Assembly (NCBI RefSeq): GCF_013402815.2
Contig: NZ_CP058601.1
Location: forward strand, 2,232,001 to 2,296,000
Direction: 5' to 3'
DNA length: 64,000 nucleotides
DNA from: Natrinema halophilum
GTDB taxonomy: Archaea; Halobacteriota; Halobacteria; Halobacteriales; Natrialbaceae
Shown in pieces: positions 2,732 through 16,672 of the stretch. A program made the position numbers and the translations under genes. The notes under the pieces were generated by a model that saw only the letters and a program-made list of their open reading frames with translations, was not told the DNA's origin and did no database searches. Numbering within the stretch: position 1 is the stretch's first letter; each line of letters starts with the position of its first letter.

Positions 2732-3607
2732 TCAATCGTCAGGCGTCGTCGGCCCCGAGATACTGGCGCCGTAGTCCGTGCCGCCGGTGATCGTATCCGG
2801 TTCCTCGACGACGTAGGACATGGCAACGAACGTGACGATGTATTTCGTCACGATATCGAGAAGGCTGTAGCCCCACGAGGTGACCGCGACGTCCAGGATG
2901 GCGAACCCTTCGACGCCGAGCGCCCAGAGGATCGGATAGCCGAACCAGCCGACTACTGTGAGGAACTTGAGCGTGCGGAACAGATCGCCGGTTCCCGCCC
3001 GCTTTGCCTCCGCGGTCCAGTCGACGAGAATGACGTACACGATCACGAGGAAGAAGATCGAACCCAGCACGAACCACCACCAGCGGAGCACCAGCGAGGA
3101 CGTCGTCAGTGCGGCCGCCAGGCCGGTGACACACATCGCAATCGTAAACGCACTGGACGTGAGGATCTTCGTCCAGTTCGACCCCGCGATCATCCCGAGC
3201 GCGATCAGGATGAACGGCGTAGAGAACGTCCACGTGAGATATCGTCCCCACATCGTCAGGACTCCGTTCTCGCCGGCCGTCGTCGCACCCGCGGCCGGAT
3301 GACCCGCCGGCATCTCGAGGACGCTCAGCGTCAATCCCGACGCGAGTCCCGTGTAACTCGAGATCGAAACGACCGAGATCAGCATCAGAACTGTCGCGAT
3401 CGCCTTCGATCTGGGATCGGTCAGGTTCCGTCCGAGATAGGCGATCCCGAGGATCGTGATACCCGCGAGCGCGATGTTGATCACGAACGACAACGCGAGC
3501 AGGGTATTGTCGCCGCCGAAGACGTACTCGAACAGCTCCGCGTCGGTCATCCCGTTTTGGAGGGCGACGTGACCTGATCGAAATCCGGCTGCGACTAGTG
3601 ACTGCAT
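2732..3607 (-). CDS. hop: Halorhodopsin, light-driven inward chloride pump
   Basis: This 291-residue seven-helix retinal protein has the chloride-pump triad in helix C: Thr125, Ser129 and Ala136, where bacteriorhodopsin has Asp, Thr and Asp. Arg122 precedes them in RYLTW. The Schiff-base lysine is Lys255 in DIVTKY. The B-C loop EMPAGH and the SWGYSLLDIV stretch are hallmarks of halorhodopsins, and the overall match to the Natronomonas pharaonis protein (from memory, also 291 residues) is high. A TATA-like box about 30 bp upstream of the ATG predicts an essentially leaderless transcript. The gene lies between bacteriorhodopsin and lycopene cyclase on the same strand. It hyperpolarises the membrane and helps maintain chloride balance in light. 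Confidence 0.96.
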   Translation of the reverse strand: MQSLVAAGFRSGHVALQNGMTDAELFEYVFGGDNTLLALSFVINIALAGITILGIAYLGRNLTDPRSKAIATVLMLISVVSISSYTGLASGLTLSVLEMPAGHPAAGATTAGENGVLTMWGRYLTWTFSTPFILIALGMIAGSNWTKILTSSAFTIAMCVTGLAAALTTSSLVLRWWWFVLGSIFFLVIVYVILVDWTAEAKRAGTGDLFRTLKFLTVVGWFGYPILWALGVEGFAILDVAVTSWGYSLLDIVTKYIVTFVAMSYVVEEPDTITGGTDYGASISGPTTPDD

Positions 3608-3630
3608 CGATACTGGTTACGTCAATCTCG

Positions 3631-3642
3631 CAATACATAAAC
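3631..3642 (-). promoter_or_regulatory. Probable TATA box of the halorhodopsin gene
   Basis: Reading on the minus strand, GTTTATGTATTG is centred about 30 bp upstream of the halorhodopsin ATG. That spacing would place transcription initiation 2-5 bases before the start codon, the usual leaderless arrangement in haloarchaea. No clear Bat-type upstream activator site could be assigned. Confidence 0.5.
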
Positions 3643-3853
3643 GGGTTTCCAGTCCGAGACGGAGACTCACGGCCGTTGAGCCGTAAGTGCCGTAAAGTGT
3701 CTACTGGCGATGGCGATCAACTGGCGGATGGGCACTTGGCGGGACCGGTAGAAAGCAGGTCGAGTTGTCGGTTCGGTCGGCGGACGGTCGGAGGATTAGG
3801 CGACGCATCGGACGGTCGGGAAGGCGACAGTCAGGGGACGATACTGGTGTGGT

Positions 3854-4585
3854 TCAGGTCGGTGTCGCGGTCGGTGCGGTCGCCCGTTCCAGGACGGAGC
3901 GACTTCGGAGCAGGAGGACGCCGAAACCGACTTTCGCCGAGAGATCGAGGATCATGAACGCGGCAGTCTCCCAGTATAGCGGAAGGATGCCGAAGGTGCC
4001 CTCAGTTCCGAGAAGCCAGACGACTGGGTAGAGCAACCAGAGCGCGATGAGCAGGTTTCGCAACGTGCCGAACAGGGACGCGACGTCCGACGTGCGATTT
4101 CGGGCGGTCTTGGAAAGCGTTCCAACCAGGAAGTACAGGAGGGCGAGCAGGGCACCGGTGCTGATACCCCACCAGGCGATTCGGGTTGGCGGTGTCGTCG
4201 CGAACGCCGCGATCGTCCCGGTTCCGATCATGAACACGTCGAGACCGAGCAACGTTGCGATCGTGTTGCGATCGGCTCCCGCCAACAGCGAGAGGTCAAG
4301 GAGCAAAAGCGGCGTCGTGAAGATCCAGTCGGCGTACCGTGCCCAGTAAATCGTGAGCGCCTCGTCGCCGACGGTGACCTCAGTGACGCCGAAACCCGTC
4401 GCCATCGCGAAGTACATCACGGCGGCGATGGACGTCACGAATATCGTGATGATGTAGAACTCCTGCATCTTGGGGTCACGCACACCGCGTCCCCGGCCGA
4501 TGAAGTAGAGCGTTCCGAGTGTCATTCCGATCGTTCCGATCCACAGCCACAGAGATTCTGGACCGACTGGAGTGGCCATAGCCAT
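3854..4585 (-). CDS. bop: Bacteriorhodopsin, light-driven proton pump
   Basis: This 243-residue seven-helix opsin has the complete outward proton-pump signature: Arg83, Asp86 (acceptor), Thr90 and Asp97 (donor) within RYADWIFTTPLLLLDL. The Schiff-base lysine is Lys218 in LDLSAK. Glu195 and Glu206 match the proton-release pair of bacteriorhodopsin. The ATG at 4585 follows GAGGTG with six bases between. A second in-frame ATG lies two codons later, and the TATA box position would also fit a leaderless start there. The gene is the first of the minus-strand photobiology block, followed by halorhodopsin, lycopene cyclase and the retinal-forming enzyme. It faces a divergently transcribed membrane protein. 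Confidence 0.96.
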   Translation of the reverse strand: MAMATPVGPESLWLWIGTIGMTLGTLYFIGRGRGVRDPKMQEFYIITIFVTSIAAVMYFAMATGFGVTEVTVGDEALTIYWARYADWIFTTPLLLLDLSLLAGADRNTIATLLGLDVFMIGTGTIAAFATTPPTRIAWWGISTGALLALLYFLVGTLSKTARNRTSDVASLFGTLRNLLIALWLLYPVVWLLGTEGTFGILPLYWETAAFMILDLSAKVGFGVLLLRSRSVLERATAPTATPT

Positions 4586-4600
4586 CACTAACACCTCTCG

Positions 4601-7955: not shown

Positions 7956-9182
7956 CTACAACTGTTCCCAGATTTCCTCGTCGTCCTCGAAGGCGTCCGG
8001 TTCATCGGGGGCTGAAAAGTCGTCGCTTCCCCCGAATTCTGTGAAATCCTTGGTGGAGAACTCGCTGTCAGATCCGACGACGGGTGGTTGTTCCTCGAGG
8101 TTCATCTCCGGCCAGGCTGTCTCTTCCCAGAGGCCGCGATCGCTGTAGTAGTAGACGATGCCGTCGTTGACGACCGCGAACAGGCCGCGTTGGCTGTCGT
8201 GGACGACGCGTTCGTTGGTATCGATCGCAACGTCGACCACGTCCTCGAGCGTATCGAGCGACACGTGGTAGTCGCCGAGCCACATCGGAATCGATCCACG
8301 CGAGATCCATTCGGCGTATCGATGTTCGTGGACTGCCCGTCGAGCGGCGTCGATGTCCGCTGGCGACCGGCGCGCGACGAACGCCGCCCCGACCAGCGAA
8401 AGCGTTCCCAGCACCGAGAGGCCGCCGATGAGCGCAGTGCTGCGTGGGACGGTCGTCCGTTCCACGCCGCTTTGGTAGCTGTGCGTCGCCGAATCGGACA
8501 TCGATCCGCCCAGCCAGTAGGCGTCCTCGGTGATCCGTATCGGCGACGAGGTCGTTATCGTTCCCTCGTGTCGACCGGTATCGTACTCGGCACGATACGT
8601 CATCGTGAGCGTGACCGACCCGATACCGCTGACTTCGCTCTCGAGTTCCCGCTGGCGCTGCCGAAGGGCTTCGACATCGATAGTCGCTTCCGACCTTGCG
8701 ATGCCGTTTTCGATCGACGGCGATTCGCGGAACACGGTGTGGGTTTCGTTCCAGAACGCTGTACCGTCGCGAGACGCTTCGAAGCGAACCTGCAGTTCGT
8801 GCGTGACGTTCGCTTCCTCGATTGCTGTTCCGTCGGTCGGATTTCGCAGTTTCGTTTTCGGCGTGATCGTCAATTCCGGGGAGGCGTCGAGTACGTAGAC
8901 CGAGCTATCGGTGAGTCGTTCGCCCTCGTTCCAGAGCGTGCTATTTTGGATGACGATAGCGCTCGTCTCGACGGACGACGAGACGCGTTCTTCGCCGAAC
9001 TGGGGCGTAGACGTCGTCACCGGGTTCGCGACGGCCCAGCCGGTCGCACCGAGTGAGAGAACGCCGACGATGACCAGCACGATCACGATCGAGCGAGCGC
9101 TTCGTGCGAGCAACAGATCGAGCCGCGGGTTATCGATCACACGTGTGACACCTGCCGAATTCCGATTGGTACTCCCCCCCAT
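7956..9182 (-). CDS. DUF5305 family membrane-anchored protein
   Basis: This 408-residue protein has an N-terminal membrane segment (about residues 30-52) and a roughly 200-residue external beta-rich domain. A second membrane helix follows near residues 247-268, then a cytoplasmic domain with a strongly acidic tail. This layout matches the DUF5305 family, which in haloarchaea is found beside SipW-like signal peptidases and DUF1102 proteins. It is the last gene of a four-gene minus-strand run behind the signal peptidase (96-bp gap). Its function is unknown. The context suggests a role in export or assembly of the surface proteins encoded upstream. Confidence 0.8.
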   Translation of the reverse strand: MGGSTNRNSAGVTRVIDNPRLDLLLARSARSIVIVLVIVGVLSLGATGWAVANPVTTSTPQFGEERVSSSVETSAIVIQNSTLWNEGERLTDSSVYVLDASPELTITPKTKLRNPTDGTAIEEANVTHELQVRFEASRDGTAFWNETHTVFRESPSIENGIARSEATIDVEALRQRQRELESEVSGIGSVTLTMTYRAEYDTGRHEGTITTSSPIRITEDAYWLGGSMSDSATHSYQSGVERTTVPRSTALIGGLSVLGTLSLVGAAFVARRSPADIDAARRAVHEHRYAEWISRGSIPMWLGDYHVSLDTLEDVVDVAIDTNERVVHDSQRGLFAVVNDGIVYYYSDRGLWEETAWPEMNLEEQPPVVGSDSEFSTKDFTEFGGSDDFSAPDEPDAFEDDEEIWEQL

Positions 9183-9278
9183 TTTCCCGGACCGGCCCGC
9201 GTACTGGGCCGGTCGACGGGATAACCATAGGCAAATGATGGAAATCGACTATTATAAGCATAGTGGCCCTGGCGCCGG

Positions 9279-10457
9279 TTATCGATCGTTCAACCATTTT
9301 CGCAGTCTTCGCTCGAGTCGGGTCGAGAGCGGGACGTGATGGCCCGGAGATCGAAACCGGATATCTCCGCTCCCGAAGATCAGGAGGACGAGCGAGACGG
9401 TGGTCGCGACGATGACGCCGTTTACGGCCGCGATGGCTGCCAGCGGGTGGAGGTCGTGGAGCCAAACCAAGGCGACCGGAGGTAATACGGCGAGATATCG
9501 GTATTCGCCGAGATGACGCGTATATTTGCCCGTCTCTTCCGGAGCGGTTAGCCACACGGATGTTTCCCCGCGGTCCCGAATGCCGACTGTCTGCCACCGA
9601 GGGTCGACACCGATCCCGCTACTTTCGGACTCGTGGACGATCGTGACGGGCACGTACCCGGCGTTGTGGACGGATCTCGTGAGTTCTGTCGTCGCGCCGG
9701 GAGTGACGATCTGTGGATCGTTGGTCGGCGATTCGGTACTTACGAGTTCGTACTCGTAGGTTCCCGACGGGACGACCATCGCCGCGGTCGCGAACGTCAC
9801 GAACACCAGTAAGACGAGTCCGAGTGCAGTCCAGAACGCGATCACGTTCTCGCGAGACCGACGTCTCGTCGTCTCGCGCCGTGCGGGTCCGAGCCGTTCG
9901 AAAAGGGTGGCGAAGCCGAGGAATGCGACGCCGATCGCGACGAGCATGGCACCGAGGCCGTTCGAGGACGGAGTCGTCGTCACGCCGACGATCGTCGCGA
10001 TCGTCCCGTAGCCCCGTTCCGCGAACCCTTGAATCGCCATCACGCTGGTGCCGAGGTACGGGATCGTTACGACCACACCCCGTATCTGCAGGGCTTTCGC
10101 GACTATCTGCCCGTCCTGTACGGGCGGCTCACCGCCGTCCTGATCGGTAAACGGATTCGCGTCTCCCTTCGTCACGTATCCCTCATCGGTCGTATCGACG
10201 ACGCGATGCGTCGTCAGACTGCCGCCGTGGAGTTCTCTCGCCTGAAAGACGATGACGTCACCCTCCTCGACGTCACCCGAGACGATGCTCGGAATCGCAA
10301 TGAAACCGTCACCGGTGTCCATCGTCGGTTCCATACTACCGGACGCGACGTACCCGAGCAAGATCGGCTGTCCGAGGAGCTGGCCGACCAGTAGCAAGAC
10401 GACGACCAACGCGAGTACGAACCCGAATCCCCGCTTGGCGAGCGCGGCGGCAGTCAT
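9279..10457 (-). CDS. Archaeal (Sec11-type) signal peptidase I with C-terminal extracellular domain
   Basis: This S26-family membrane protease removes signal peptides. The catalytic Ser41 is in SGSMEPT, His84 in TTHRVV and Asp99 in KGDANPFTDQD. The His in place of Lys makes it the archaeal/ER type. At 392 residues it is about twice the size of a minimal Sec11. The C-terminal half adds membrane helices and an external beta-sandwich-like segment (about residues 235-330) before two more helices and a basic tail. Position next to DUF1102 and DUF5305 genes suggests a dedicated peptidase for those substrates, comparable to SipW for TasA. That analogy is inference. Confidence 0.88.
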   Translation of the reverse strand: MTAAALAKRGFGFVLALVVVLLLVGQLLGQPILLGYVASGSMEPTMDTGDGFIAIPSIVSGDVEEGDVIVFQARELHGGSLTTHRVVDTTDEGYVTKGDANPFTDQDGGEPPVQDGQIVAKALQIRGVVVTIPYLGTSVMAIQGFAERGYGTIATIVGVTTTPSSNGLGAMLVAIGVAFLGFATLFERLGPARRETTRRRSRENVIAFWTALGLVLLVFVTFATAAMVVPSGTYEYELVSTESPTNDPQIVTPGATTELTRSVHNAGYVPVTIVHESESSGIGVDPRWQTVGIRDRGETSVWLTAPEETGKYTRHLGEYRYLAVLPPVALVWLHDLHPLAAIAAVNGVIVATTVSLVLLIFGSGDIRFRSPGHHVPLSTRLERRLRKWLNDR

Positions 10458-10664
10458 GGATGCTGAGCGAGAACGATCATTGTCGACTAACTGTTCGGTC
10501 TGACTATACTACTGCTGATGTATAAATGTCGCGAGCCGTCGATGCACGAGGAAGACCGGCGGTTCGTATCCGCCGAGCGACGAATCGAGATGCTCCAGTT
10601 CGAAGCGACAGCGTTGCGGTTGCGGGCGACGGTGGAGGGCGACATCCGATCTGAAACGCGCCTA

Positions 10665-11819
10665 TCAGACGATCGTCCACCGGCGGTTCGCAGCCACTAT
10701 CAGGATCATCAGCCCTGCCGACGCCGGCGGCGCGAGTGCTGCCGTCGTCACCGCCGAAAGTTCTCGATTCCGGATCGCAAGCGGTCCTGGTTCATCGACT
10801 CTCACCGTCCCCGCGGTTATCCCGCTCACCGCGATTTCGTACGTGCCCGTCTCGCCGAACGTGCGCTCGAAGGTTAGCGTCCGTTCGCCGTTGGCTGGAA
10901 TCGAGACGACACGACTGTCGACGACGATTCCGTCGACCGCAAACTCGAGTGTCCGCTCGACCGGCGCATCGGTTGGATTGCTAACCGTCGCTCGGATCGT
11001 CGTTGATTCGCCAGCAGTGAGTGACGCATCGTCGACAGACGCGTTGACGACATCGATCGGCGGCCCTTTGACGGTTACCGATCGGCTTCCGACGCCCTCG
11101 ATTCCCACGTCGAACGACTCCGGCCAGTACATCGTCCGTTCGAACGTGACGGATGTCGACTCGCCGGGCCCGAGTTCGATCGACCGCTGTTCGACGACAG
11201 TTCCGTCCACCGTCAACGACGCCGTAACCGACCCCGTTTCGTCGCCGACGTTTCGATACGTCGCGGTCGCCGTCACCGTTTCGCCGGTCTCGAGCGACAT
11301 CGGCGAGACAGTGAGGTTATAGCCCGATATTACCGGTCCGGTATCGGAGTCGTCACGTTCGGGTTCGTCATCTTCGTACTCCACCATGACCGTGAACGTC
11401 TCCGTTCCGTTCTGTGCGATGCTCGTGTCTACCGCGACGCCGATGTGTTTGGTTTTACCGGTTGCCGGCTCGAGTGGGCTCGATTCACTGATCGTGTGAG
11501 TCGGATCGCCACCCTTGTAGAATGTGAGGCCGGAAACGTCGTGGTCGATCCAGACCCTCTCGACGTCATCGGTTACCGTGATCGTGAACACGTCATCCGC
11601 GTGCGTTACCGCGTCCTCGTTCAGGCGTTCGAGATCTAACTCGAGTTGATCGCCCGAAATACGAGCGTAGTCTCCGTTCGGTCCGGACGCTGGTTCCAAC
11701 TCGAGTCTATCGGTTGTATCGCTCTGTGGTCCCCCATTTGCAGCGATCACGACTGCGCCAGTCGATACTGTGGCTCCCACCACGGTGAGCAACACCAGAA
11801 ACGTATACCGAACGGACAT
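10665..11819 (-). CDS. Exported surface protein with DUF1102-like N-terminus and CARDB-type domains, C-terminal anchor
   Basis: This 384-residue protein has a signal segment (VRYTFLVLLTVVGATVSTGA) and a DUF1102-like domain containing RLELEPASGPNGDYARIS. Two CARDB-type beta-sandwich modules follow, at about residues 165-255 and 255-345. Each has the adhesion-like pattern of charged strands ending in SVTFERT or TLTFERT. A C-terminal hydrophobic helix and RRW end suggest membrane anchoring. CARDB domains are found in archaeal cell-surface proteins. It sits between the DUF1102 gene (27-bp gap) and the signal peptidase, probably in one operon. It may be a minor or anchoring subunit of a surface structure. 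Confidence 0.78.
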   Translation of the reverse strand: MSVRYTFLVLLTVVGATVSTGAVVIAANGGPQSDTTDRLELEPASGPNGDYARISGDQLELDLERLNEDAVTHADDVFTITVTDDVERVWIDHDVSGLTFYKGGDPTHTISESSPLEPATGKTKHIGVAVDTSIAQNGTETFTVMVEYEDDEPERDDSDTGPVISGYNLTVSPMSLETGETVTATATYRNVGDETGSVTASLTVDGTVVEQRSIELGPGESTSVTFERTMYWPESFDVGIEGVGSRSVTVKGPPIDVVNASVDDASLTAGESTTIRATVSNPTDAPVERTLEFAVDGIVVDSRVVSIPANGERTLTFERTFGETGTYEIAVSGITAGTVRVDEPGPLAIRNRELSAVTTAALAPPASAGLMILIVAANRRWTIV

Positions 11820-11846
11820 AGAGAGGGGGAAAGCGAGGTACCGAGC

Positions 11847-12353
11847 TTAGTTACTCGTTTTGGTGGCGTTGATGGTGATCGTCACGTCATCTGATGACGA
11901 GAACTTGCTGGAATTAAGCGCGAGGCCGACGGATTTGGTATCCGAGGTGCCGATGCTGGTTAACTCGGCCTTGTTACCGGTGGTGTACGTCCGGGTTTCA
12001 CCGGTATATACCATGATCGAATCGCTATTGGAAGAGACGTTGGCTTTGATAACTCCCTCGTCGTTGTTCTCTATGTCGAGTACGTCGTCGTAATACGTAG
12101 TGGCGTTCCCGTTGACCTTCGTGAATTTCAGCCCGAGTTCACCGTCTGACCCGTTACTGTAGCTGATAGCGCTACTGCCGGTGTAACTACTGTTGAGGGA
12201 AATGCCGAGGGCCGCATCCGCGTCACCGGTCGTTTCTACACTCACGTCACGCTGCGCTTCGACCTGGCTGAACGCGCCCGAAGCGATAAGCGCTCCACCA
12301 AGTAGGATGGTCGTTCCCAATACGAACAACACGTTGCGTCGGTTCATTCTCAT
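11847..12353 (-). CDS. DUF1102 family secreted protein, TasA/SipW-substrate-like
   Basis: This 168-residue protein starts MRMNRRNVLFVLG, preceded by GGAGA about nine bases upstream. A single N-terminal hydrophobic segment ends GALIASGAFSQVEAQRDVSV. After the likely cleavage site comes a Ser/Asn/Thr-rich beta domain with no cysteine. The pattern of a short signal, then a Gly/Ala-Phe boundary, then R-x-V-x-V-x-T and an A-x-LGI strand recalls TasA/camelysin-type fibre subunits. Only the DUF1102 match is family knowledge; the fibre idea is inference. It is the promoter-proximal gene of the four-gene minus-strand run and could be the major product. Confidence 0.8.
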   Translation of the reverse strand: MRMNRRNVLFVLGTTILLGGALIASGAFSQVEAQRDVSVETTGDADAALGISLNSSYTGSSAISYSNGSDGELGLKFTKVNGNATTYYDDVLDIENNDEGVIKANVSSNSDSIMVYTGETRTYTTGNKAELTSIGTSDTKSVGLALNSSKFSSSDDVTITINATKTSN

Positions 12354-12847
12354 GATTATGGTCTCCGTTCCGCAGTTTCCGGCACCCGTATGCGACGGGT
12401 AACCGGTGTGCGGTTCTGGTCGTACCGTGGAACGATACCCACTTTGTATTGAGTAGCCAGAACCGGCGAAAGCCCGGCCATACGCATCTTCAAGGGGGGC
12501 CTGAAAGCCGATTGCGGCCGTTTTACCGGGGTGGAGACGATGACGTTTCGCCAACCGAACCGCGATCGTTGGCGACTCGAAAGCGACTCTCGAGCGACAG
12601 TGGCCACTATTATCAGACCCTCTATATTTACACCAATTAATTCAGTCATGTATGTTATCCCAATCTCGTCCATAATTATCGAGTGAACAGATCGCTTGTG
12701 ATGCGAAAATCATTCAACAGTACTCAGTCAGGCGTTCGCAGTCGATAGACGCCGTTTTCACGAAGCGATACGTGCGATAGCTGGAGGCCACTGAAGGACA
12801 ACAAACGTTATATATCACCAGAACAGATATTTATATTGATTAGGAGG
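12354..12847. other. Divergent intergenic region between DUF1102 operon and DUF7344 regulator
   Basis: Nearly 500 bp without a credible gene separates the two divergent starts. A TATA-like TAAATATAG on the minus strand near 12620-12632 would give the DUF1102 transcript a leader of roughly 250 bases. The plus-strand promoter is annotated separately. Confidence 0.55.
12807..12816 (+). promoter_or_regulatory. Probable TATA box of the DUF7344 regulator gene
   Basis: GTTATATATC lies about 36 bp upstream of the ATG at 12848. Initiation some 26 bp downstream would leave a leader of about ten bases. A GGAGG abuts the ATG with no spacing, so it is probably not used as a normal ribosome-binding site. 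Confidence 0.5.
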
Positions 12848-13420
12848 ATGGCAACAACCGGTGAGAGTCAACCGGCCCAGTCGAGGCCCGGAGACTACGA
12901 CACCCAATCGAGGGAAGGCGAAATATTCGACCTGCTTTCCAATCAGCGCCGCCGATACGCCATCCACTACTGTAAGCGCGAGGAAACGCCCGTCTCGCTG
13001 GGCGACCTCGCCGAACACGTCGCTGCGTGGGAACTCGAGAAGGAACTCGAAGAAATCACCTCGGCAGAACGAAAGCGAGTCTATACATCGCTACAGCAGT
13101 CACACCTGCCAGCCCTCGAGCAAGCCGATGTGATCGAATTCGACGACCGGACGGTCGAACTCACCGACGAAGCGGCCGAACTGGACGTCTACCTCGACAT
13201 CGTTCCGGGCGATTCAGTCCCGTGGGGAGTCTACTACCTGGGGCTGACCGCGGTCGGGGCCGTCGTGATCGCGGGGGTGTGGCTCGAGGTGGTCCCGACG
13301 GGGACGATTCCCGAACTCGGCTGGGCGACGCTGGTGTTCGCCCTGTTCGGCGTGTCGGCCGTCGTCCACGTAGTACAGAACCGACGAATGCGAATCGGAA
13401 AAACGGAGCGACCGCCGTAA
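12848..13420 (+). CDS. DUF7344 winged-helix regulator with two C-terminal membrane helices
   Basis: This 190-residue protein has an N-terminal winged helix: EIFDLLSNQRRRYAIHYC, then the SLGDLAEHVAAWE helix and a LEQADVIEFDDRTVELTD wing. This is the haloarchaeal DUF7344 pattern. Two hydrophobic helices (about residues 126-148 and 155-175) follow, so the regulator should be membrane-tethered. It is divergent from the DUF1102/signal-peptidase run and 9 bp ahead of an exported protein. It could therefore sense envelope state and control both sides. An upstream TTG would add four codons but lies in the putative leader. Confidence 0.82.
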   Translation: MATTGESQPAQSRPGDYDTQSREGEIFDLLSNQRRRYAIHYCKREETPVSLGDLAEHVAAWELEKELEEITSAERKRVYTSLQQSHLPALEQADVIEFDDRTVELTDEAAELDVYLDIVPGDSVPWGVYYLGLTAVGAVVIAGVWLEVVPTGTIPELGWATLVFALFGVSAVVHVVQNRRMRIGKTERPP

Positions 13421-13429
13421 CTAACACCC

Positions 13430-14338
13430 ATGGCCGATCGAGTTCGTACGACGCGTCGTGGTGCACTGGGTCTCATAGGGGGTGGTGCAGTGTTCTCGAT
13501 CCTGGAAACCCAGGGTTACTCTCACGTACTGGGAGAACGGTTGACGAACGTACAGACCGCCACCGATAAGAACGCGCTCCTTGGTATCACCGGCGCGAAT
13601 GATACGTCGATCACACCGACGTTTACGAACAACACCAACAGACACATGGACGTAACGCTCGATAGCGCCGAAGCTATCGAACTGGACGTCGGAAACGATG
13701 GAAACTGGGTCTCGCCTCCGACGTCGTTCCCGCTGGTTGCAGGTGAATCGAAGGAAGTGAACATCCGGTATCTCGGCGTCTGCACCAGCGCAGGCTGGGC
13801 GACGGTGGACATTACCGGAGGACTTGCCGACGGGAGTGGGAACACCGTCGGTTCTGTTCACCTTTCTCGAGATTTCAAGATTTCCGAGGCTGGACAGGTG
13901 CAATTCACCGGGACTGCGAAAAGCGCCGGTAGCAGTGGCAAGTACGAATTCGAAATAGAAAACACGGGTTGCTCCGATGTGACGTGGACCGGGGTCGGGA
14001 TCAACGAAACGACGACTGGTGCAGACTACGTCTCCGGAAAGGGAAGTCTGTTTAACAAAAATACGAAACAGGAGTTAGTTACAGATCAAATTCCGATAGA
14101 TAGCGGTAATCCCGAGAGCGATACCCGTCGTGACTTCAACCAATCGGTTCAATTACTCCGAAACGATCCCATGAGGTTCGAATTCAGGGAATTTATGCAA
14201 ACTGCATCCGGGAACGGGAAGGGAAACAAAGATTCCAAAGTGGATATGCAGGGAGAGGACATCCGAATCACGCTGTATCTAAGCGACGGGAGTTCTGCCA
14301 TTGTCAAACTCTGTCTCGGAACCTGTGATTTTAATTGA
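13430..14338 (+). CDS. Exported protein with Tat-like signal, DUF1102-like
   Basis: This 302-residue protein begins with VRTTRRGALGLIGGGAVF, an Arg-Arg motif followed by a hydrophobic stretch. The segment RLTNVQTATDKNALLGITG mirrors the start of the mature DUF1102 protein encoded across the divergent promoter. The rest is beta-rich with four scattered Cys (two as SVHL/CTSAGW and ENTGCSD, two near the C-terminus as KLCLGTCDFN) that could form disulfides. It lies 9 bp after the DUF7344 regulator and is probably co-transcribed with it. No membrane anchor is visible at the C-terminus, so it may be released or assembled into a surface polymer. Confidence 0.72.
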   Translation: MADRVRTTRRGALGLIGGGAVFSILETQGYSHVLGERLTNVQTATDKNALLGITGANDTSITPTFTNNTNRHMDVTLDSAEAIELDVGNDGNWVSPPTSFPLVAGESKEVNIRYLGVCTSAGWATVDITGGLADGSGNTVGSVHLSRDFKISEAGQVQFTGTAKSAGSSGKYEFEIENTGCSDVTWTGVGINETTTGADYVSGKGSLFNKNTKQELVTDQIPIDSGNPESDTRRDFNQSVQLLRNDPMRFEFREFMQTASGNGKGNKDSKVDMQGEDIRITLYLSDGSSAIVKLCLGTCDFN

Positions 14339-14538: not shown

Positions 14539-14856
14539 ATGTCGACCGAATCGATTAGCGACCGACGCGAACACATTCGCTCGGTCAGTGTAACCGCCAT
14601 GTCCGCGCTACTGGGCGTCGGCGCGGCAGTCGCCTCCGCGACGTGGGTCGGAACGACCACGACGGCTGCCCAGAGCACGGAAACGCTCGCGTTCGTCGTC
14701 GGCGCAATCGTCGTCCAGTACGTCCTCATCAACGCCCTGGGGATATACGGCGAGGACGAATTCGGAACCAAGCATTATCTGTTCGTGGCGTTCATGACCT
14801 TCGCGCTATGGTTTATTACGTGGGGCATTTTGCTCACCGCGGAGGCAACTGGCTAA
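14539..14856 (+). CDS. Small membrane protein upstream of ABCE1
   Basis: This 105-residue protein has an acidic and basic mixed N-terminus of about 14 residues and three hydrophobic helices. They lie at about residues 18-38, 48-68 and 82-100. I do not recognise a named family, although small membrane proteins in this position are common in haloarchaea. Its stop is separated from the ABCE1 ATG by one base, so the two are almost certainly translated from one message. The link with ribosome recycling is positional only. Confidence 0.75.
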   Translation: MSTESISDRREHIRSVSVTAMSALLGVGAAVASATWVGTTTTAAQSTETLAFVVGAIVVQYVLINALGIYGEDEFGTKHYLFVAFMTFALWFITWGILLTAEATG

Positions 14857-14857
14857 G

Positions 14858-16672
14858 ATGGCCGACGACAGCATCGCCGTCGTAGACCTGGACCGATGTC
14901 AGCCCGATCGGTGTAGCTACGAGTGCAAAAACTACTGTCCGCCAAACCGCACCGGTAAGGAGTGTATCACCCTCCGCGGTGAGGAAGCAGACGAGGGGCA
15001 ACCCGAGCAGATCCACATCTCCGAAGAGATCTGTCTGGGCGAAACCTGTGGCATCTGCGTCGAGAAGTGTCCGTTCGACGCCATCGAGATAATCAACCTC
15101 CCCAAGGAACTTCAGGACGACCCCGCACACCGCTACGGCGAGAACGCCTTCTCGCTGTACGGCCTCCCCGCTCCGCAGGAAGGGCAGGTGACCGGTATCC
15201 TTGGTCCCAACGGAATCGGGAAAACGACCGCGGTCCGAATCCTCGCAGGCGAACTCGAGCCGAATCTCGGCCGCTACGAGGAGTCGCCGGGCTGGGACGA
15301 GGTGCTCGAAGCCTATCGCGGGACGGAGCTACAGGATTACATCGCAGACGTCCGCGACGGCGACGTTACGGTGGCACGAAAGCCCCAGTACGTCGACCAG
15401 ATTCCGAACACCTTCGACGGCAACACGCGCCAGCTACTCGAACGGACGAACGAGCGGGGGGCCCTCGACGACCTGGTCGAGCGCCTCTCGATCGAGCCGG
15501 TCATGGAGCAGTCGATCGACGACCTCTCTGGCGGCGAACTCCAACGGGTCGCCATCGCGGCCACGCTGGCACGCGACACTGACTTTTACTTCCTCGACGA
15601 GGTCACGCCGTATCTCGACATCGGCCAGCGCGTGACCGCGGCGCGGCTGATTCGCGAACTCGCCGAAGAGGAGGACAAGTCGATGCTCGTCGTCGAGCAC
15701 GACCTCGCAATTCTCGACCTGCTCGCGGACACGCTCCACGTCGCCTACGGTGAGCCGGGGGCCTACGGTGTCATCACGTCCCCGAAATCCGTCCGCAACG
15801 GCATCAACGAGTACCTTTCGGGGTATCTCGACAACGAAAACATGCGGATTCGGCCGGATCCGATCGAATTCGAGGAGCACGCGCCCCGAACCGGGACCCA
15901 CGGCGACACGCTCGTCGAGTACCCCAACCTCACCAAGAGCTACGGCGACGGCGAATTCAGCCTCGAGATCGAGAGCGGCCAGATTCGCGAAAACGAGGTA
16001 CTCGGGATCGTCGGCCCGAACGGGATCGGGAAGTCGACGTTCGCGAAACTACTGACGGGCAATCTGACGCCCGACGATGGTGATGCCGATCTCGATCTCG
16101 AAATTTCCTACAAGCCCCAGTACGTCACCATCGACCAGCATATGCGGGTCGACGCCTTCCTCTCGTCGATCACCGACCAGTTCGGCTCGTCGTACTGGAA
16201 CACGGAAATTGCCCAGCCGCTCCAGTTAGAGCGTATCATGGAGCAGAACCTCTCGGACCTCTCCGGCGGTGAGCGCCAGCGGGTCGCGATCGCGGCTTGC
16301 CTCTCCGATTCGGCCGACCTCTACTTGCTCGACGAACCCTCCGCTCATCTCGACGTCGAACAACGGGTACAGGCGACCAAAGCGATCCGCCGCTACGCCG
16401 AACAGCAGGACGCGACCGTGATGGTCATCGACCACGACATCTACATGATCGATCTGCTCGCGGATCGGCTGATGGTCTTCGACGGAGAATCCGCCGTCCA
16501 CGGCCGCGCAGGAAAACCCCAGCCGATGCGCGACGGCATGAACGAATTCCTCGCGAACCTCGAGGTTACTTTCCGCCGGGACGAACGCACCTCACGCCCG
16601 CGGATCAACAAACCCGATTCTCAACTGGACCGCCAGCAGAAAAGCGACGGCGAGTACTACTACGCGCCGTGA
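14858..16672 (+). CDS. ABCE1 / Rli1, ribosome-recycling ATPase
   Basis: This 604-residue cytosolic protein splits ribosomes into subunits after termination. The N-terminus binds two 4Fe-4S clusters through CQPDRCSYECKNYCPPN and CLGETCGICVEKCPFD. Two ABC domains follow: Walker A GPNGIGKTT with signature LSGGELQRVA, and Walker A GPNGIGKST with signature LSGGERQRVA. Walker B segments are FYFLDEV and LYLLDEPSAHLD. Length and domain order are as expected for archaeal ABCE1. The first Walker B is followed by V-T-P-Y instead of the usual P-S-S/A, a mild deviation. Confidence 0.97.
   Translation: MADDSIAVVDLDRCQPDRCSYECKNYCPPNRTGKECITLRGEEADEGQPEQIHISEEICLGETCGICVEKCPFDAIEIINLPKELQDDPAHRYGENAFSLYGLPAPQEGQVTGILGPNGIGKTTAVRILAGELEPNLGRYEESPGWDEVLEAYRGTELQDYIADVRDGDVTVARKPQYVDQIPNTFDGNTRQLLERTNERGALDDLVERLSIEPVMEQSIDDLSGGELQRVAIAATLARDTDFYFLDEVTPYLDIGQRVTAARLIRELAEEEDKSMLVVEHDLAILDLLADTLHVAYGEPGAYGVITSPKSVRNGINEYLSGYLDNENMRIRPDPIEFEEHAPRTGTHGDTLVEYPNLTKSYGDGEFSLEIESGQIRENEVLGIVGPNGIGKSTFAKLLTGNLTPDDGDADLDLEISYKPQYVTIDQHMRVDAFLSSITDQFGSSYWNTEIAQPLQLERIMEQNLSDLSGGERQRVAIAACLSDSADLYLLDEPSAHLDVEQRVQATKAIRRYAEQQDATVMVIDHDIYMIDLLADRLMVFDGESAVHGRAGKPQPMRDGMNEFLANLEVTFRRDERTSRPRINKPDSQLDRQQKSDGEYYYAP

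Follow-up and report, generated by a model that had tools for sequence, protein, structure and literature searches.

The locus lies in Natrinema halophilum (GCF_013402815.2, contig NZ_CP058601.1), within a 64,000-nt stretch of DNA that we call the window and to which all its coordinates refer. The translated sequence of the window holds six intact reading frames there, and these confirm the gene order, strands and coordinates given in the earlier note. Transcribed from the minus strand, in this order, are P0001 (11847..12347), a TafE/DUF1102-family pilin and probable shaft subunit; P0002 (10665..11819), a TafF-type protein; P0003 (9279..10457), an enlarged signal peptidase; and P0004 (7956..9182), a DUF5305 membrane protein. 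The plus strand encodes P0005 (12848..13420), a DUF7344 winged helix with two membrane helices, and P0006 (13430..14338), a TafC-type exported protein. P0001 has an alternative start, MRMNRR, at 12353. Elsewhere in the window are two adjoining bacteriorhodopsin-family genes (2732-4594, minus strand; PF01036, 157 and 224 bits) and, at 14539-16672, an EMC6_arch gene followed by one for an ABCE1/RNase L inhibitor-type ABC protein; genes with lengths equal to those of the latter pair flank the cluster in many relatives.

P0001 had previously been described as a DUF1102 secreted protein. Its match to the corresponding model, PF06510, falls below the cut-off (17.7 vs 22.2 bits), and it is the NCBIfam TafE model that covers nearly its whole length, with 72 bits, which is also below the respective cut-off of 155. 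A relatives search found no viral relatives of P0001. Twin-arginine motifs mark the starts of P0001 (MNRRNVLF) and P0006 (TTRRGALGL) as putative Tat-type signals, unlike the Sec-type start of P0002. A mature start shared by all three exported proteins had been proposed, and it holds for two of them: V-x-T-x-x-D-x-x-A-x-L-G-I occurs at residues 37-49 of P0001 and 41-53 of P0006 with identical spacing, and is absent from P0002. The region encoding this signature spans 12201..12281 on the minus strand in P0001, where an SGA-F cleavage region and a probable N-terminal donor strand precede the motif, and 13508..13588 on the plus strand in P0006, where, as judged from the sequence and its alignment with relatives, the motif follows a TQG-Y cleavage region. 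At the end of the signal, [T/S]GAF is found in 59 of 63 members of the P0001 family, 56 of which carry RR upstream. In the pilus structure 9P0A ('Natrinema sp. J7-2 Tafi pilus', released 2025-07-23), 188 of the pilin's 215 residues are modelled; if the chain is unbroken to its C-terminus, it would start at the Phe of GAF.

P0002 was correctly recognized as a CARDB-type anchored protein: it has a Sec-type start, two stretches matching CARDB (47 bits) and a C-terminal hydrophobic stretch at residues 359-377. It has no direct match to the NCBIfam TafF model, but profile comparison links it to TafF (98.1%) and its N-terminal domain to the P0001 family (97.1%, E value of 6e-11). This domain order, with the pilin-like part first, CARDB next and the hydrophobic segment last, makes P0002 a likely base of a pilus. 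The assignment of P0004 to DUF5305 is also correct (PF17231, 163 bits). The genome has only two copies of this family, both beside enlarged peptidases, and neither DUF5305 nor DUF1102 is mentioned in the literature that we searched.

P0003 is indeed an enlarged Sec11-type peptidase, with 392 residues, extra membrane segments, a C-terminal extension between membrane segments and a match above the cut-off to the archaeal signal peptidase model TIGR02228 (69 bits). Residues S41, H84, D99 and D105 are invariant across nine homologues and agree with the Ser/His pattern of endoplasmic reticulum (ER)-type signal peptidases, a pattern common to SipW and archaeal peptidases, whereas the match to the NCBIfam SipW model reaches 50 bits, far below the cut-off of 190. 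Further signal peptidase genes lie elsewhere in the genome, at C1:2799-2801 kb. Genome-wide, solid matches to the TafE and TafC models and both DUF5305 genes are confined to the window locus and C1:3155-3161 kb, and both of these loci carry an enlarged peptidase. This co-occurrence supports, without proving, that P0003 may be a dedicated enzyme.

On the opposite strand, P0005 is a DUF7344 protein as described (PF24035, 102 bits), and two hydrophobic stretches in its C-terminal part are predicted membrane helices. DUF7344 also adjoins tafA and tafC in a reference cluster, and this position next to subunit genes suggests a probable role as a local regulator of the cluster. P0006 has no Pfam match above the cut-off; its N-terminal third matches TafC with 35 bits, below the NCBIfam cut-off of 410, and its residues 5-153 match a TafC alignment with 98.3%. 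The predicted model of P0006 is a two-domain, all-beta structure (pLDDT 83) with an N-terminus of low confidence, and fold searches with it returned general two-domain beta-sandwich matches, all with Z below 8 and none specific. Across 79 related loci, the protein in this slot varies in length between species. The reference TafC (L098:5614-6768) ends in a Laminin_G_3 domain, which is concanavalin-like and lectin-like and suggests a candidate carbohydrate-binding tip adhesin; P0006 lacks this domain.

Together, we read the six genes as a Tafi pilus cluster without canonical tafA, with a probability of about 0.88. Taf stands for Tat-fimbriae ('tafi'), which are surface structures of haloarchaea (Galeva et al., iScience 2025, 28:111793, as cited in PMC12687288). 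The reading is based on gene content, homology, predicted fold and a genomic position syntenic with that of a solved Tafi pilin gene. Clusters from genomes with TafA above the NCBIfam cut-off, which we used as references, are built from the same families as the window locus. In one of them, L098, TafC (542 bits), TafA (245), TafE (222) and TafF (567) all exceed their cut-offs, and a signal peptidase, DUF7344 and DUF5305 adjoin the taf genes. TafE, TafF, TafC, signal peptidase, DUF5305 and DUF7344 of the reference clusters are all represented at the window locus, which also shares their Tat-type signals; it differs in lacking TafA, in TafE and TafC scores below the cut-offs and in the missing Laminin_G_3 domain.

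Canonical TafA has no match above the NCBIfam cut-off in either the window or the whole genome. We do not treat TafA as defining for Tafi, because the cluster type of Natrinema sp. J7-2, from which a pilus has been solved, also lacks it. This gene context was read from N. gari, where the gene in the syntenic position of P0001 (L132:5935-6612) encodes a protein identical to the solved J7-2 pilin at 182 of 182 residues, in a cluster without TafA. In a sample of 79 named loci collected through homologues of the peptidase, DUF5305 accompanies the peptidase in 74, TafE-type proteins in 71, DUF7344 in 64, CARDB/TafF-type proteins in 59 and TafA in 7. These counts place the gene arrangement far beyond chance. 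The loci span many genera, with Natrinema species as the nearest relatives of the window locus, and the Tafi gene set is thus widespread among haloarchaea, mostly without tafA. There is strong support for the idea that the cluster makes a secreted fibre and brings its own signal peptidase, since the syntenic gene encodes the solved Natrinema Tafi pilin; what the earlier note did not provide was the name, Tafi, and the locus joins a system already known and structurally solved within this genus rather than representing a new one.

Structure prediction had been set beforehand as the check on the fibre hypothesis, and an archaeal bundling pilus heads the fold matches of P0001. The AlphaFold2 model of its mature part is all beta (pLDDT 79.7, with a pLDDT of about 50 for the first ten residues), and Foldseek ranks 7UEG, the AbpA bundling pilus of Pyrobaculum calidifontis, first, 7PNB second and 9P0A tenth. 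VIA-align superposes P0001 on 7UEG with a Z of 9.1 and an rmsd of 2.8 over 114 residues (15% identity), and on 9P0A with a Z of 7.5 over 111 residues. Since many unrelated beta sandwiches score a Z of 7-8, the sequence evidence outweighs the fold evidence for P0001. As a single sequence, P0001 matches the 9P0A pilin with an E value of 4.8e-9, mainly through the signal and the mature start, and the profile of its family, A2, built from mature sequences, matches it with an E value of 1.8e-21 over profile positions 1-139 of 143; part of the strength of the latter match arises because A2 includes the N. gari locus L132, that is, the solved protein's own sequence. The two systems share the genus, the position of the pilin gene, the signal, the mature start and the lack of TafA, but P0001 is only about a quarter identical to the solved-pilin type (26% to the N. 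gari sequence) and its mature part has 135 residues compared to 182.

Which subunit forms the shaft is less obvious from family names. In a tree of 114 small subunits, TafA is monophyletic (100/100), and P0001 and the solved pilin fall together on the other, TafE, side. NCBIfam names TafE (NF052522) a fimbrial adapter, a label at odds with 9P0A, whose deposited pilin belongs to the TafE side. Taken at face value, the name, the position outside the TafA clade and a genome without TafA above the cut-off would make P0001 an adapter only, with the shaft formed by P0006 or by a protein encoded elsewhere, and the cluster a remnant or dependent on a subunit in trans. We consider this unlikely, as the solved J7-2 pilin is itself a TafE-side protein from a TafA-less cluster, TafE-type proteins occur in 71 of the 79 sampled loci and TafA in 7, and all six reading frames are intact. 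Despite its placement on the TafE side, the match and synteny with the 9P0A pilin make P0001 a very probable shaft subunit, and very probably one of the TafE-side proteins that form the shaft in TafA-less clusters. The 'adapter' label for TafE may thus mislead, as the family shares its side of the tree with a solved Natrinema shaft pilin.

The export routes, the cleavage by P0003, the assembly through donor strands and the parts played by anchor, tip and regulator are our inferences for this Tafi pilus. P0001 and P0006 would be exported folded through Tat, and P0002 probably through Sec. P0003 would cut the precursor of P0001 at [T/S]GA-F and that of P0006 at TQG-Y, which would free an N-terminal strand in each. 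Donor-strand complementation between successive P0001 subunits, joined head to tail, would then build the shaft. P0002, in which the same type of pilin-like domain precedes CARDB stalks and a membrane helix, would anchor the base, and P0006 would serve as a minor or tip subunit. DUF5305 (P0004) may help to assemble or anchor the pilus, and DUF7344 (P0005) may be the local regulator.

Before the Tafi assignment, the locus had been compared to the SipW/TasA system, and the comparison partly holds for the mechanism, with its ER-type peptidase and an aromatic residue conserved in the cleavage region. No sequence link to TasA/camelysin was found, and the signals of the main substrates are Tat-type. 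As in tapA-sipW-tasA of Bacillus subtilis, a secreted beta-rich subunit is encoded beside an ER-type peptidase, and an aromatic residue closely follows its cleavage site; in TasA, the generic peptidase LepB is hindered by the Phe at P2' together with residues around it, and cleavage falls to SipW, a dedicated ER-type enzyme (PMC10269814). The window locus differs in its enlarged peptidase, and its TafF anchor and DUF5305 are without a shown counterpart in tapA-sipW-tasA. A reading of the cluster as a genuine TasA/camelysin-SipW matrix-fibre system, sharing ancestry with the one in Bacillus, could draw on this aromatic, on the 50 bits of P0003 against SipW and on the fold similarity to AbpA, which PMC9674648 describes as TasA-related. 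AbpA comes from a distant archaeal lineage and is 15% identical to P0001. Neither Pfam nor NCBIfam TasA/camelysin models match at E values up to 1, which is compatible with distant homology, the SipW score is far under 190 bits, TasA is absent from the 50 structural matches listed for P0001, though it may rank below them, and the signals are Tat-type instead of Sec, so that such descent appears improbable. The second Foldseek match of P0001, the thread filament Saci_0406 of Sulfolobus acidocaldarius (7PNB), is weak (E value of 0.008); this thread is a donor-strand-linked filament (PMC9715654).

That these are unrelated secreted surface proteins beside a general signal peptidase, forming no filament, is very improbable: archaeal surface proteins often contain CARDB domains and the strain is known here from its genes, but the neighbourhood is conserved in 79 loci of many genera, the genome has signal peptidase genes elsewhere and a solved pilus is built from the syntenic gene.

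Within the Tafi pilus reading, P0003 and DUF5305 might together form an assembly platform, in which the C-terminal extension of the peptidase would hold the nascent pilin during cleavage of the signal by the catalytic domain, and this cleavage would itself license donor-strand polymerization, free of chaperone and usher, onto a TafF base that also bears the pilin-like domain; we put this forward tentatively, as a possibility that is rather doubtful at present. The locus offers a clear way to ask whether donor-strand filaments depend on a local ER-type signal peptidase in the way that TasA depends on SipW.

The same genome has a second Tafi-type locus (L109, C1:3155279-3160525), which encodes TafE-type proteins of 612 and 198 residues, a DUF7344 protein, a TafC-like protein, a DUF5305 protein and an enlarged peptidase that is 40% identical to P0003. 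Many Natrinema relatives (L077, L078, L080, L082, L084-L090 and L093) encode, within the cluster or next to it, a protein of 870-1060 residues that is missing from the window; its gene often separates the TafE-type gene from that for DUF7344. Two of these proteins were scanned, and both contain DUF7289, one together with Pilin_N and the other with VWA.
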